The position numbers and the translations under genes were made by a program. Under the pieces are notes generated by a model. The model did no database searches, was not told the DNA's origin, and saw only the letters and a program-made list of their open reading frames with translations. A stretch of DNA of 64,000 nt from Pilaira anomala (lineage: Eukaryota > Mucoromycota > Mucoromycetes > Mucorales > Mucoraceae), in contig JAIXMQ010000094.1 in the NCBI GenBank assembly GCA_025716855.1, positions 1 to 64,000 on the forward strand, written 5' to 3'. Each line of letters starts with the position of its first letter. Position 1 is the stretch's first letter. This document shows, piece after piece, positions 56,687 through 64,000 of this stretch.

Positions 56687-59076
56687 ATGAAGGAGTCGAG
56701 CACCTCTTTTTTTTTTCAAAAGTTTAAAAAGACACAAAAAGAAAACCAAGCTTTTGATCCTTCTGTTTTTTTTTCTATTGCGATTTTCAAAATGATGCTC
56801 TTTTCACTTCATTCAATTTTTACTCAACCTACCGTCTCTCAAACTGATAATAAGCTTTTAAGCTACGTTCAAAAGACAAATGTAAACGAATTTAGTATTG
56901 TGAATTTCTTTCAATATTTCGGATTCAAGGAAAGAAACCCTGCTAATGCTACTTTCAAAGAACTTATCAGTATCATCATGAATCAGTCAAAGCCTGAAAA
57001 AGATATACTTGAATTTGCTCAATATCATTATATCAATGATTATGCAGTTAGTGTGAATTTCTTGTATAGTGATTAAAGTATTCTTAAATTTGTCTTTTTT
57101 TTTAGGTATTAGATTCAGATGAAGCTGTTATGTACTGGGCAGAAAAAGTCAAGAAATCAATTGAAAACATCAATGTTGAGATAGGTATTAAAAATAAAAA
57201 ATTGGATGCATTAAATGCCTTGGATAAAGTCAATTGTCTTTTAAAAGTCAAGGTATATATATACACATAAGAAAAGAAAGATTTGGCAAAGTGAGTGAAA
57301 TCATGCTAATGTAATAGTATCCCAATCCAGGAAAACCAAATTTGTACGCCACCTAATGTCAAGCAGAAATTGAGCGCCCCTGTCAAGGAGGAGAAGATGA
57401 GGGATAACAAGGTATGTTTACAGAAAAAAAAAAGTGCTTAAAATTACATTCAAGCTAAATACTAGTAAATAGAATGAAACTTATGATGAAGGGTAAACAA
57501 CTTTACTAAACTATTAACTTGTCATTCTTTTTTTTTTTTTATTAATTTATTTATGCAGGGCAGTCGAGGAAGAAACTAAACTAACGGGTATCTCGGAACG
57601 AACTTCAGCACCATACTCTCAAACACCTCAAAGTTTATTGAGAAAAGTTTCTAGTCCTCTTGTTATTCCTAAAGTGATCGACGATGTGAATATTGGAACA
57701 TTTTTAGCAAACCTTAAACCGGTTTCACAAAACAATCAATGGACTGTAGGCAATCGTAATATGATGAAAGCTTGGACACTTTTTAAGACAAAATGTGCAG
57801 AACAATGTATTAGAGGGGGTGTTTCTGTTGCTGATGATATTCAAGCGATTTTGTAAGTAAAATGAAATTTATGGTTTTTTGTGACGATATTAACATTTCT
57901 GTGAAAAAAAAAAGACCCCTTTCTCATATTTTCTATGTCAAATCTAATGATAATTCCAAATTCATGAATGAGTACTATTTCGGGTACAAAACCCTATGTA
58001 CAGTTCAAACATATATCAAATCAAAGATTGGCATTGAAGATAAATATACCTTTAAAGGTACCGCACAAGCCGAAGCTGTTCAAGTGGTCGAGGTAATGGT
58101 GAGCATATTCAATATTCGCAATTCAGGAACTGATTAATTTTTTTTATAACAGAACCTTTTGAAAAAAGATACTGGGAAAAGAAAACCTGCAGCTAAGCAG
58201 ATCATTAATCTAGCAGTAGACCTTCCTGAGGATGAATATTTAATCATGTCAGAACTGGTTTCAATGTAAGTGCAAAAAAAAACAGATACCAATTATTAAA
58301 TACCTGGCTCACATAATTTTCTATTTAGGATAAATTACTTGCCTCGACGACCAACATCGCCAGACAAGACGCAGCATAAGGTATGTCTTACAGATTATGC
58401 AAACCCCGTCCTTCGACCTATATTTGAACATGTCAATGCTAAAACTAAACTAAAATGGTAAGCTTTTAGTATATATTTTCAATGCTTTTGCTGATATTTT
58501 ATGTACGCCATAGGTTAAATATGGAAACTCCAGAAAAGAAAATGTCGCTTGAACCAAATGCAGTCATATACCCCCTTGCTGCACACCCAAGATGCTATCT
58601 TGGTATGGGTAAAGTTACGCCTATCACAGGCGATGAAGAAGAAGATCGTTTTAAAGCATCGACCGACCTTATTGGTTTAGCAATTAGTTCGAAAGCTATT
58701 ATCGACAATTGTTTGCAAACGTATGTTCGAGATGTTGTATTTTTTCAAATAGTTGGTAAATATGCTTACAATGAGAAAAATGTATCTATAACTTTTCTAA
58801 TAAGGTTATACCCTAGGATTTAAAATTACATTTTATATCATGTCACTTTTGCATGAGGGTATGTACGTCATGACAGACATAGCCGAGATTGAGGTCCCAC
58901 AATCTATTGAAGATTTGATCTCCTTTGCTACTAACTTACAGTCTTCACTGACTGTGTCAAGGATCTTTAAAGCATGCTGTAATAACGAAAACAAAGATGC
59001 CGCACGAAAAGGATATTATAGACCAACTTTATCAACTCCCAAATTTGACCAATTGATAAATCTCAGTAAAGCCTAA
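56687..59076 (+). CDS. Ten-exon protein of unknown function, 607 residues
   Basis: The exons read are 56687-57046, 57106-57252, 57331-57411, 57473-57492, 57559-57852, 57915-58092, 58153-58265, 58329-58457, 58514-58755 and 58817-59076. All borders are GT/AG and all phases agree, so the gene is intact. No catalytic motif or membrane helix is evident. The N-terminus is polar and Lys/Ser-rich; the middle has a Pro/Ser linker (ERTSAPYSQTPQSLL); the C-terminal half is a globular region with blocks KVCLTDYANPVLRPIFEH, LGMGKVTP, DLIGLAISSKAIIDN and HEGMYVMTDIAEIEVPQSIE. From memory, proteins of this general style occur in large numbers in mucoralean genomes as hypothetical proteins, but I cannot verify that here. 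Exon 4 is only 20 bases. A donor six bases later in exon 6 (58098) is an equally possible variant. Confidence 0.7.
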
Positions 59077-59185: not shown

Positions 59186-62100
59186 TTATTTATCTGTAAG
59201 TAATTTCGATTTTCCTCCTGCCATCATATGTGCAGATTGAGGCGCAAACTTTTTGATAGCAGCAATTAACTCGGGGAATCTTAAGGGTTTAGTGACATAT
59301 TCATCCTATGCAATTGATTAATATATTGTGTATAAAAAAAAAATAAGAAAAAAAAAAGAACTTACCATGCCAGCTTGCAAACATTTTTCTCTATCACCAA
59401 TCATTGCGTGTGCAGTCAAGGCGATAATTGGAATATGTGCCTTTGAGTTCGAACTATGTTCAATTTCACGAATTTTTTGTGTGGCTTCAAAACCGCCCAT
59501 GACAGGCATTTGCACATCCATTAAAATTAAATCAAATGTTTGAGATTCGTAAGCTTCTACAGCTAATTTACCGTTTGCTACTACCGTCACATGATGTCCA
59601 AACTTTTCTAAGATACGAACAGCTAATTTTTGATTAACATCGTTATCTTCAGCAAGTAAAACTTCTAAAGGTACAGTCTTGGATGCATCTCTTGGAAGTG
59701 CAGCATGACTTTCTAATGCAGGAGATAAAACGTCGGCTAAACCAGCAAGGTTAGTGGGTGAGTTAATATAACCGGTGATGCCCAAATCAATACATAGTTT
59801 CATGTTGAGTAAGTGTACTTCAGGTGCAATTAATACAATTGGTGTATAACGAAAAGGTACTATTTCTCTAATCTTTTCCGCTAAACCCATTTTATCAACA
59901 ATGACAGTATCAAAGAATGGTGCATGTTTGCTCTTATTTGAATTAGCGTTAGAAATAGTTGCTGCTTCTTCAATACTGCTGACACGATAAGGTTTGAGGT
60001 TTAAGGTTTTAATTTTGTCTATAACACCTGTTTCATCATTCATTGTATCCACAAACAAAATACGTCTATTTCTGAAACGTCGTAATTTTTCAACAATTTC
60101 TTTTTCTTCTAAACTGAAACGGAAAAGATTGACTGTAAAGTAAAATTCTGATCCACGGCCATATTTGGATTCAACCCATAAGTCACCACCCATTAATTGA
60201 ACAAGATGTCTAGAGATTGAAAGACCTAAACCAGTACCACCATATTCACGACTAGAAAATAAGTAGTTAGTAAACGCTTATTTATAAGATATACATTATA
60301 TATATATATAAAAAAAAAAGGGCTTACGTGGTACTACCATCTGCTTGACAGAAAGTATCGAAAATAACATGAAGTTTGTCTTCTTGAATACCAATACCTG
60401 TGTCACTGACACATAACTCCAATCTTACGGTACTATCTTGCATACGAACAGCTCTTGTACGAAGTACAACTTCACCTTGAGTAGTAAACTTGACAGCATT
60501 ACCAATAAGGTTAGTAATGACTTGTCTTAAACGCAAGGGATCACCAATTAATTGATCAGGAATAGATTGATCAACATGATAAATAAGGTCTAATTTCTTT
60601 TGATTGGCCTTTACAGCTAATGTCTTTAATACACCAAAGACAGCAGAACGAAGAGAGAAAGGAATAGATTCGATTGTCATACGACCAGCTTCAATCTTTG
60701 AAATATCCAAAATATCATCGATAATAGTTAACAAACTATTTGCTAAGCTTGAAACAATCATCAAGTTTTCTCTTTGTTGTCTATTTAATTCAGTTTCCAA
60801 AGTTAGTGAAGTCATACCAATAATACCATTCATAGGTGTACGAATTTCGTGACTCATATTAGCCAAAAATTCACTCTTGGATCTATTTGCTAATTCAGCA
60901 GCCTCCCTTGCCAATCGATTTTTCTGAATAGCATCACGAAGTGAGCCAACCATTTGATTAATCTTGGTTTTGAGGGAATCCATTTCACCAGAAGCTTCAA
61001 CAGTAATTAATCGAGAAAAGTCATTTTCAGTAGCTGCAGCAGAAATTTGAGCAAATGCACGGACTTGTGTTGTTAAATTAGAAGCCATGGTATTTACATT
61101 ACTGGTAATTTCTCTCCAAACACCTTCTACATCCATGACTTGAGCTTGAACACCAAGCTTACCTTCTGTACCTACTTCTCTAGCTACTCTCGTCACTTCA
61201 GAAGCAAATGAACTCAATTGATCCACCATAGTATTAATCGTGTTTTTCAATTCAGCAATTTCGCCATGTACTTCTACTTCAATCTTTTTACTTAAATCAC
61301 CTTGTGCTACAGCTTTACAAACTGCTGCAATTGCTCGAAGTTGATCCGTCAAATTACTTGCCATTAAATTTACGTTATCTGTCAAATCTTTCCAAGTACC
61401 GTCGACACCTACAATAGCTGCTTGACCGCCTAGCATACCTTCCGTACCCACTTGTCTCGCAACTCTTGTTACTTCTGCAGCAAATACTCGTAGTTGATCC
61501 ACCATATCATTGACTGTCTCCCTATTATTTTATATATAACTATTAGTTATAAAGTACAAGTCATCAGCAATAAAAAGAAATGCACTTACTTTAATTCACG
61601 AATCTCACCTCGAGTTTCTACTTCAATTTTTTTAGATAAATCACCAAGAGCAACCGCTTTCGTTACTTCAGCAATAGAACGTACTTGCGTAGTAAGGTTT
61701 GCAGCCATAATATTGACATTGTCTGTTAAGTCCTTCCAAGTACCAGCAACACCTTGAACATTTGCTTGACCGCCTAATTTACCTTCTGTACCTACTTCAC
61801 GAGCCACACGAGTTACTTCGGATGAGAATTCACGCAACTGGTCCACCATAGAATTAACAGTAATCTTGAGCTCTAAAATTTCACCTCGCGTTTCAACATG
61901 AATCTTTTTGGACAGATCGCCGTTTGCTACAGCCTTTGTGACCTCTGCGATAGAACGTACTTGGGATGTTAAGTTTGCAGCCATAATGTTGACATTATCC
62001 GTAAGTTCATTCCAAGTACCAGCAACACCTTGTACTACAGCTTGTCCACCCAATTTACCTTCAGTACCTACTTCTTTAGACACACGAGTTACTTCGGACG

Positions 62101-64000
62101 CGAAAATACGAAGTTGATCCACCATGTTATTGACAATATTTTTCAGGTCTAGTATTTCACCACCAGACTCTACCTCAATCTTTTTAGAAAGATCACCAAG
62201 AGCAACCGCTTTGGTCACTTCAGCAATTGATCTTACTTGGTTTGTCAAGTTTGCAGCCATAATGTTTACATTATCGGTTAATTCGTACCATGTACCAGCA
62301 ACACCCTTAACAACAGCTTGTCCACCGAGTTTACCTTCAGTACCTACTTCTTTCGATACACGCGTTACCTCAGAAGCAAAAATACGTAGCTGATCCACCA
62401 TGCCATTTACGATATCTTTTAGTTCTAGAATTTCACCTCGCGTCTCCACTTCAATCTTCTTTGAAAGATCGCCTAAAGCAACCGCTTTTGTGACTTGAGC
62501 AATTGAACGTACCTGGGTTGTTAGGTTTGCAGCCATTGTATTGACATTGTCCGTTAAATCTAACCAAGTTCCCGCAACACCTTGAACAACAGCCTGACCG
62601 CCTAATTTACCTTCCGTACCTACCTCCTTTGATACACGAGTAACTTCCGAAGCAAAAATACGTAGTTGATCCACCATGTCATTCACCGTGTCTTTTAAAT
62701 CTAGAATTTCACCTCGCGTTTCAACTTCAATCTTCTTTGATAGATCACCATTAGCGACTGCTTTTGTCACTTGAGCAATCGATCGCACTTGAGTCGTTAG
62801 ATTTGCAGCCATTGTGTTTACGTTATCTGTCAGATCCATCCAAGTACCAGCCACGCCTTCTACTGTAGCTTGACCACCTAATTTACCTTCAGTACCTACT
62901 TCTTTAGCAACACGCGTAACTTCAGATGCAAAAACACGTAACTGGTCCACCATTTCATTGACTGTATTCTTTAAATCAAGAATTTCACCTCGAGTTTCAA
63001 CTTCAATCTTTTTTGACAAATCACCATTGGCTACAGCTTTTGTTACTTCTGCGATCGACCGTACTTGTGTGGTCAAGTTGGCAGCCATAATATTCACATT
63101 ATCAGTGAGTTCATTCCAAGTACCAGCAACACCTTGTACAACAGCTTGGCCACCTAATTTACCTTCAGTTCCTACTTCCTTTGATACACGTGTTACTTCA
63201 GATGCAAAGATACGTAATTGATCCACCATGTTGTTTACAATATTTTTCAAATCTAATATTTCTCCACCGGATTCAACTTCAATCTTTTTCGATAAATCAC
63301 CAAGCGCTACAGCTTTTGTTACTTCAGCGATGGAACGTACTTGATTCGTTAGATTAGCAGCCATGATATTGACATTATCCGTCAATTCATACCAAGTACC
63401 AGCAACTCCTTTCACAACAGCTTGACCACCTAATTTACCTTCCGTTCCTACTTCTTTAGACACACGAGTTACCTCAGAAGCAAAGATTCGTAGTTGATCC
63501 ACCATGTCATTCACAATATTTTTCAGTTCTAGAATTTCTCCTCGCGTTTCCACTTCAATCTTTTTCGATAGATCACCTAGAGCAACTGCTTTCGTCACTT
63601 GGGCAATCGAACGTACTTGAGTTGTCAAATTAGCAGCCATAGTGTTTACATTATCTGTCAGGTCTAACCATGTACCAGCCACACCTTCTACCATTGCCTG
63701 TCCACCAAGTTTACCTTCAGTACCTACTTCCTTCGATACACGAGTAACTTCAGCGGCAAATACACGTAATTGATCCACCATGTCATTGACCGTATCTTTT
63801 AAATCAAGAATTTCACCTCGAGTTTCTACTTCGATTTTCTTTGACAAATCACCATTTGCAACAGCTTTTGTGACTTGAGCAATCGAACGAACTTGCGTGG
63901 TAAGATTAGCAGCCATAGTATTCACATTATCAGTAAGATCCATCCAGGTACCAGCGACACCTTCAACCGTAGCTTGACCACCCAATTTACCTTCAGTACC
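59186..64000 (-). CDS. NIK1: Group III hybrid histidine kinase (NIK1/OS-1 type), N-terminus beyond window
   Basis: This is a cytosolic osmosensing and fungicide-target kinase upstream of the HOG pathway in other fungi. The exons read are 59186-59305, 59366-60251, 60328-61521 and 61590 to beyond 64000. In order it has at least eleven 92-residue HAMP-type repeats (VDQLRxFAxEVTRV ... KLGGQA ... GVAGTW ... LTDNVNxMAANL ... [10 protein letters not shown]), a histidine-kinase dimer domain with [17 protein letters not shown] (phosphorylated His), an ATPase domain with the N box [24 protein letters not shown] and [12 protein letters not shown], and a receiver domain with [10 protein letters not shown], phospho-acceptor Asp in LILMDVQMP, and YVTKPL. 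All catalytic residues are in place. Family members usually carry five to nine such repeats; this one has more, and the protein starts outside the window. Confidence 0.93.
61590..64000 (-). repeat. Tandem 276-base HAMP-coding repeats with a 4-unit higher-order duplication
   Basis: Within the kinase gene, units of 276 bases (92 codons) repeat in tandem. Units also match at four-unit distance: the unit with [10 protein letters not shown] and [10 protein letters not shown] appears near 62281 and again near 63385, exactly 1104 bases (4 x 276) away, and the units on each side match their counterparts in the same order. The repeat continues beyond the right edge and into the exon 60328-61521 with more diverged units. 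Confidence 0.9.

Follow-up and report, generated by a model that had tools for sequence, protein, structure and literature searches.

What has given a fungal histidine kinase a HAMP array in which four kinds of repeat return in a fixed order, and how old is that order? The question is raised by the end of a stretch of 64,000 nucleotides from Pilaira anomala, a Mucorales mould (the window; positions 1 to 64,000 of contig JAIXMQ010000094.1, C220), whose 3' end cuts into a gene, here called gene A, that encodes a long tandem series of HAMP units. An initial annotation, made from the letters of the window, had proposed that the array grew by doubling of a four-unit block and that it could be a site of copy-number variation between strains. 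Gene A runs on past the window on the same contig to position 69468, and its complete array consists of 26 units of 92 amino acids, A1 to A26. Judged by its sequence, the product is a hybrid histidine kinase of the group III-like (Nik1/Os-1) kind with 26 tandem HAMP units, in which A12-A23 very probably derive from old duplications of a four-unit block, followed by purifying selection.

The four-type cycle

Tandem Repeats Finder describes 61589-64000 as a repeat of period 276 with 8.7 copies and 78% matches. Eleven units lie inside the window, A16 in part and A17-A26 in full (Table 1), in agreement with the earlier count of at least eleven in a gene that continues. Translation of the minus strand also gives the order of unit types first described, that is GTWMDL, GTWLDL, GTWYEL with ESGGE, and GTWNEL (M, L, Y and N below), and the GTWYEL/ESGGE units in the window begin at 63502 and 62398, a distance of 1104 bases, as had been noted. 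The series M-L-Y-N occurs three times, in A12-A15, A16-A19 and A20-A23, of which the window holds the last two, with A16 incomplete. Growth by a block of four units (368 residues) is thus retained from the initial annotation, with the block tripled rather than doubled. Block-wise growth of the whole array is not, as the cycle is limited to A12-A23, the remaining 14 of 26 units are off cycle, and a paralogue, gene B, has a nine-unit run of one kind instead.

Within A12-A23, seven columns of the unit (15, 38, 39, 46, 60, 78 and 79) are fixed within each type and different between types. On our reading of the HAMP motif, columns 38-39 (GTWxx) and 78-79 (TR or SG before GE) would fall at the connector/AS2 junctions, a region that is described in a passage of PMC3570549 as telling HAMP classes apart. 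As a separate observation on composition, third-position GC is 0.30-0.47 in A4-A9 (65711-67366 on C220, past the window) and 0.18-0.32 in A10-A26.

The four-type cycle exceeds chance, both in DNA and in residues. Permutation tests in which unit order was shuffled were made separately for A4-A24 and A12-A23. In A4-A24, DNA identity is highest between units four apart (lag 4, 0.794), a value that no permutation out of 5000 reached; lags 1, 3 and 5 stand above chance too, their values being reached by 66, 23 and 56 of 5000, respectively. The highest DNA identities in A12-A23 are those of lag 4 (0.822; 4 of 5000 permutations) and lag 8 (0.824; 51 of 5000). The residue identity of these units is 0.965 when they lie four apart and 0.967 when they lie eight apart, while pairs whose lag is no multiple of four reach 0.879. 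A residue tree of the same twelve units requires three changes of type, the minimum, which none of 2000 label shuffles achieved, although its N units are paraphyletic; in a tree built from codon positions 1 and 2 each of the four types stands apart, again with three changes and 0 of 2000 shuffles, and a tree of the whole DNA requires four changes (3 of 2000 shuffles as good).

Age and stability of the block

Third codon positions do not group the types (six changes, with 341 of 2000 shuffles as good), and the comparison of units n and n+4 in a unit tree, proposed at the outset as a check, therefore divides: these units are closer at replacement sites and are not closer at silent sites. Synonymous codon identity in A12-A23 is 0.524 at lag 4, 0.519 at lag 8 and 0.525 among other pairs, with about 0.47 expected at random. 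A18 and A22 agree in 92 of 92 residues, yet share just 44 of 89 synonymous codons, where 42.1 are expected at random. Nei-Gojobori estimates for lag-4 pairs are dN 0.028 and dS 1.50, a ratio of 0.018, and for other pairs dN 0.084 and dS 1.38; about 65% of silent sites and about 18% of all bases differ between lag-4 copies, which are identical over at most 32 nt in a row (35 nt for copies at lag 8). The same pattern is found in the run B11-B19 of the paralogue (97.1% of residues and 53.8% of codons identical). Silent sites this close to saturation at lag 4 mean that the block is not a recent one, and the simplest reading of these sequences is that the block duplications are old and that each unit has been held near its type by purifying selection.

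A recent tandem duplication, with current copy-number variation between strains, would account for three copies in phase and for the complete residue identity of A18 and A22, as well as for a relative that differs by exactly one period (P0016, see below) and for the 2 of 16 close-relative pairs whose unit numbers are unequal even though every aligned unit is identical. It is nonetheless quite unlikely, and we reject it on the silent sites: the codons of A18 and A22 and the short exact matches speak against it, and the differences between strain pairs come from gene models, with irregular unit spacing in Apophysomyces.

Expansion of the array by repeat misassembly, named with the initial annotation as a way in which its reading could fail, has in its favour the tandem-repeat nature of the array alone and is hardly credible. 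Lag-4 copies in A12-A23 differ in about 18% of their bases, none of the 5678 100-mers of exon 5 is non-unique (68 of 5727 51-mers are), positions 58001-74000 contain no N, and P0004 matches gene A in the number and order of its units; k-mer uniqueness and the matching P0004 array are our grounds for rejecting it. Copies at lags 4 and 8 share no more than 35 identical bases, so that neither misassembly nor a recombination hotspot is suggested by the DNA, and the proposed site of copy-number variation finds no sign in the DNA.

Two controls place this degree of silent-site drift. Polyubiquitin of the same genome resembles gene A in having protein-identical units with drifted silent sites (six units, 100% of residues identical, codon identity 0.70 against 0.64 expected, an excess of 0.16), and differs in being another protein, with unit pairs up to 97% alike in DNA. 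For bacterial poly-HAMP kinases, we took the loci of the best 80 of at least 590 matches, of which 69 gave arrays of at least 8 units and 11 gave none. Only 3 of the 69 have any unit pair above 95% DNA identity, and codon excess over random among pairs at least 90% alike in residues has a median of 0.28 (range 0.05 to 0.65, in the 60 arrays with at least three such pairs), against 0.10 at lag 4 in gene A. By these controls old repeats under purifying selection are ordinary, and the array of gene A lies at the more drifted end.

It might be asked whether silent sites were instead driven apart by selection for DNA dissimilarity that stabilises the array against recombination, in which case the block may be younger. 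Near-identical protein with near-random codons, seen in A12-A23 and also in B11-B19, is what such selection would produce; the scarcity of bacterial arrays with nearly identical unit pairs would fit as well, as would the silent sites of genes A and B, which show no greater divergence although the kinase tree makes this split an older one. We regard this as unlikely. In A12-A23 codons agree slightly more often than at random, and adjacent units are at least as similar as units far apart; values below the array-wide random expectation are limited to early versus late units of A4-A24 (lags of at least 16), where third-position GC differs. The polyubiquitin of the same genome is similar, bacterial arrays keep more codon memory, and ordinary age is enough. 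Active avoidance of DNA identity has no clear support in the codon identities.

Exact tracts, compared with nulls, give no sign of exchange at lag 4 within gene A. The sole tract in A clearly past the nulls is 84 nt long, at lag 6, between A8/A9 and A14/A15 (null maxima 41 in 30 recodings and 48 in 100 column shuffles), and gene B has one of 132 nt at lag 10, between B6 and B16 (null maxima 44 and 53). Each has the look of a single gene-conversion event. A7 of gene A and B12 of gene B share an exact match of 59 bases, a value without a null, which is perhaps a trace of exchange between the paralogues.

The paralogue and the long-array relatives

HAMP matches on C220 extend past the window edge to 67949, and a second site in the 34.25 Mb genome lies on another contig, C160. 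This is gene B (657069-648319, 2800 amino acids, 22 units in our hand-built model), whose product is identical to P0007, Pilaira anomala BD770DRAFT_469190, so that the model agrees with an independent annotation. The order of domains is the same as in gene A, but B11-B19 are nine near-identical units of one kind, with no four-type cycle; A23 and B20 agree in 86 of 92 residues, the ending [21 protein letters not shown] included. In a kinase tree restricted to long-array relatives (one chosen protein, P0064, dropped out because the motif was lacking), A and B each pair with a Rhizopus protein, which places their split before that of Rhizopus and Pilaira; deeper branches are weakly supported. Gene B is thus an old paralogue, and the two arrays expanded in different ways.

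Relatives were drawn from the best 120 of 7996 matches to the array, a query that favours long arrays and omits proteins shorter than 0.55 of its length; 64 named fungal rows (those marked partial omitted) and 14 bacterial rows were picked from these. P0004, 97% identical to A, has 26 units that correspond one to one. P0016 has 22: after the counterpart of L17 come one Y and then the counterpart of N23, N19, M20, L21 and one Y being gone. The missing units are consecutive and lie within the block region, a difference of exactly four, which supports the four-unit step of the initial annotation. Pilobolus umbonatus has 24 units with the cycle in phase. Repeat number, which was to be compared among strains and species, varies between relatives of Pilaira, the level that our comparison covered. 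In residue permutations lag 4 was matched by 0 of 2000 in A, 1 in P0004, 6 in P0016 and 0 in Pilobolus, and L and N units hold copy-specific residues that are common to several species at matching positions.

Among 17 further arrays (paralogue B included), lag 4 is seen in Blakeslea (3 of 2000) and Rhizopus microsporus (2 of 2000); the other 15 are without it. Units 9-11 and 13-16 of Blakeslea best match M, L, Y and M, L, Y (or A8), N of gene A, in phase, a hint that the block predates both Pilaira and Pilobolus. M-L-Y-N at lag 4 is clear in Pilaira, Pilobolus, P0004 and P0016, and partial in Blakeslea. The block of R. microsporus differs, its units 11-14 and 15-18 matching A10, A11, Y, Y and A10, A11, Y, N.

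That a different four-unit block has the same period could be taken to mean that no block was ever duplicated, each type having arisen once and selection for a four-unit period having made the same order three times, and the silent sites do lack any trace of a block. Such a course of events is very improbable given the periods of two, three and five units in other lineages, which leave no general four-unit rule, and given the copy-specific residues shared between species at matching positions. These periods emerge from a survey of 117 proteins (of 122; five had fewer than 11 interior units) that includes bacterial rows, counts P0007/B twice and is uncorrected for kinship. Proteins with p<0.01 number 41 at lag 1, 23 at lag 2, 14 at lag 3, 9 at lag 4, 5 at lag 5 and one each at lags 6, 7 and 8, and a universal period of four is rejected on these counts. 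At p<0.005, lag 2 occurs for example in Mortierella alpina, lag 3 in Linnemannia zychae and lag 5 in Dimargaris. Because several block sizes appear across these proteins, block-wise growth is not rare in the long-array family, with four as one size among several. Fungal array periods of 5, 3 and 2 units were noticed in P0037, P0014, P0040, P0059 and P0117; in the last three, neighbouring units are less alike than chance, in an alternating pattern.

By gene model, the 64 named fungal arrays have 15-28 units (median 21), the low end of which may be truncated models. The two close-relative pairs that differ in unit number are Rhizopus microsporus/azygosporus (21 and 19 units; P0022/P0043) and Apophysomyces BC1034/BC1015 (22 and 19; P0012/P0045), differences between gene models that may be real variation or faulty annotation. 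A literature search limited to open-licence papers found none on the long-array form in Mucoromycota, which we do not offer as proof of novelty.

We thus suggest that A12-A23 arose when one four-unit block was duplicated, more than once, in an ancestor common at least to Pilobolus, P0004 and P0016, that strong purifying selection afterwards kept the units near their type-specific sequence while silent sites drifted to near saturation, and that a whole or a half period was occasionally added or dropped. Several observations weigh against this. The highest synonymous codon identity within A12-A23 is at lag 3 (0.566), not lag 4. With silent sites near saturation, the DNA can neither date nor order the duplications, so that block duplication is deduced from residues and from the proteins of relatives. 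Four arrays of the same kinase clade (P0013, P0008, P0058 and P0018) are not significant at lag 4, which makes the age of the block uncertain, and the count in P0016 is that of a gene model, in which a mispredicted intron could mimic the loss of four units. Codon identity between A and B is 0.571 over eight matched units and 0.600 over the kinase, slightly above that of lag-4 units, where a simple clock expects it to be lower; all of these codon values are near saturation, however, so that the A/B split was rejected as a clock and no date is drawn. Finally, a structure predicted for A20-A22 from a single sequence reached a pLDDT of 41.6 and was discarded.

The kinase and its putative working

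In our hand-built model gene A occupies 69468..59186 of the minus strand, in 8 exons encoding 3253 amino acids (Table 1). HisKA, HATPase_c and receiver domains follow the array in this order, and the catalytic boxes [43 protein letters not shown] are likewise ordered. Pfam finds 21 HAMP (PF00672) and 20 HAMP_2 (PF18947) stretches in exon 5, which in our reading give every unit one canonical and one divergent HAMP, alternating along the chain. Over 268 residues, about three units, the array aligns with PDB chain 9trk; both 9trk and 9trj come from a related histidine kinase in fusion with Gcn4p. No annotated protein among the matches listed is identical to the product of gene A, and a query from the window had zero matches in phage records.

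Table 1. Array units, exons and domains of gene A (contig C220; window positions are the same as contig positions)
Feature	Position	Strand	Source or location
A16, M type (GTWMDL/TRGE), first of block copy 2	63779..64000 in window; whole 64054-63779	-	
A17, L type (GTWLDL/TRGE), block copy 2	63503..63778	-	
A18, Y type (GTWYEL/ESGGE), block copy 2	63227..63502	-	
A19, N type (GTWNEL/TRGE), block copy 2	62951..63226	-	
A20, M type, block copy 3	62675..62950	-	
A21, L type, block copy 3	62399..62674	-	
A22, Y type, block copy 3	62123..62398	-	
A23, N type, block copy 3	61847..62122	-	
A24 (GTWKDL), off cycle	61590..61846, last 19 bases in next exon (61521-61503)	-	
A25	61502-61227	-	exon 6
A26	61226-60951	-	exon 6
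Exons 1-4	69468-68910, 68830-68156, 68086-67803, 67727-67461	-	hand model
Exons 5-8	67366-61590, 61521-60328, 60251-59366, 59305-59186	-	hand model
Exon 5, 5777 bases, open throughout	67366-61590; window part 61590..64000	-	
Exon 6: end of A24, A25, A26, HisKA, first part of HATPase_c	60328..61521	-	
HisKA (PF00512), H-box SHEIRTP	60684..60881	-	Pfam
HATPase_c (PF02518), first part, rest in exon 7	60345..60545	-	Pfam
Exon 7: end of HATPase_c and receiver	59366..60251	-	
Receiver domain (PF00072), exon 7	59662-59366	-	Pfam
Exon 8: end of receiver and stop codon	59186..59305	-	

Fungal group III kinases (Nik1, Os-1, TcsC, DhNik1 and CaNik1) share with gene A the plan of HAMP-pair repeats of about 90-92 amino acids followed by HisKA, HATPase_c and receiver; passages of PMC3848655 give 92 amino acids for the HAMP pairs of CaNik1 as well. 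They differ in repeat number, for which parts of PMC5159414 give 5-7 and of PMC3848655 five to six, against 26 in gene A with its internal four-unit super-repeat. We take the 5-7 range as descriptive rather than defining. In the databases, kinases with the same kind of array occur in a good number of early-diverging fungi and in some basidiomycetes, among them Mucorales, the Mortierella group, Dimargaris, Calocera and Mycena, with block size and unit types varying by lineage, and among the best 120 matches some long-array relatives were named NIK1 or histidine kinase osmosensor by their depositors.

Poly-HAMP hybrid kinases with fungal-like units were also observed in bacteria of several phyla. 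Bacterial-named rows among the same 120 have units that can be aligned with those of gene A (67-72% identical to the query array) and list PF13185, which we take to be a GAF domain; bacterial arrays have fewer units than gene A, 8-15 in the 69 arrays of the control and 14-18 in the 14 bacterial rows, and more codon memory is kept in the former. Extended poly-HAMP regions are described for the myxobacterial AskA, AskB and Amb07 in a passage of PMC7643160. Exon 5 of gene A has weak summed Pfam matches to HTH_6 and SpoIIID that overlap the HAMP units, with no single stretch passing. Overlapping matches of this kind are taken as possible DNA-binding domains of AskA and AskB in the passage cited (PMC7643160); on gene A they may be mere helix similarity. 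On the plus strand, an apparent multi-exon gene at 57862-59076 lies tail to tail with the kinase gene and ends about 110 bases from its 3' end; two of its open reading frames are without a Pfam match.

The gene A kinase would be a soluble dimer, in whose array each 92-residue unit contributes two HAMPs, one canonical and one divergent. A hydropathy scan over 19 residues peaks at 1.65, at residue 188 within an alanine run. The array may form a long helical rod of mixed units that relays conformational signals to the kinase, and an osmotic role is presumed. For DhNik1 and CaNik1, passages of PMC5159414 and PMC3848655 report a dependence of kinase control on how many HAMPs there are and in which order. 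The types would differ at, among other places, the connector/AS2 junctions of both HAMPs, setting the ease of switching, an expectation that follows from our placement of type-specific columns at those junctions, which PMC3570549 names as separating HAMP classes.

It is conceivable, if on balance doubtful, that the order of unit types is itself conserved, with the four-type period acting as a functional super-unit of eight HAMPs kept by selection after the silent memory was lost. It would then be mainly whole or half periods that can be gained or lost harmlessly. A passage of PMC5120217 describes as a general pattern that repeats in one protein diverge fast from each other and are then each conserved; beside this, the four-type super-unit would, if true, be an unusual case. 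More generally, the near-identical repeats found here are not young, and protein identity alone would misdate their duplication, while the lineage-specific arrays of 15-28 units offer natural variants of length and order in which the passage of signals along a long HAMP rod may be studied.

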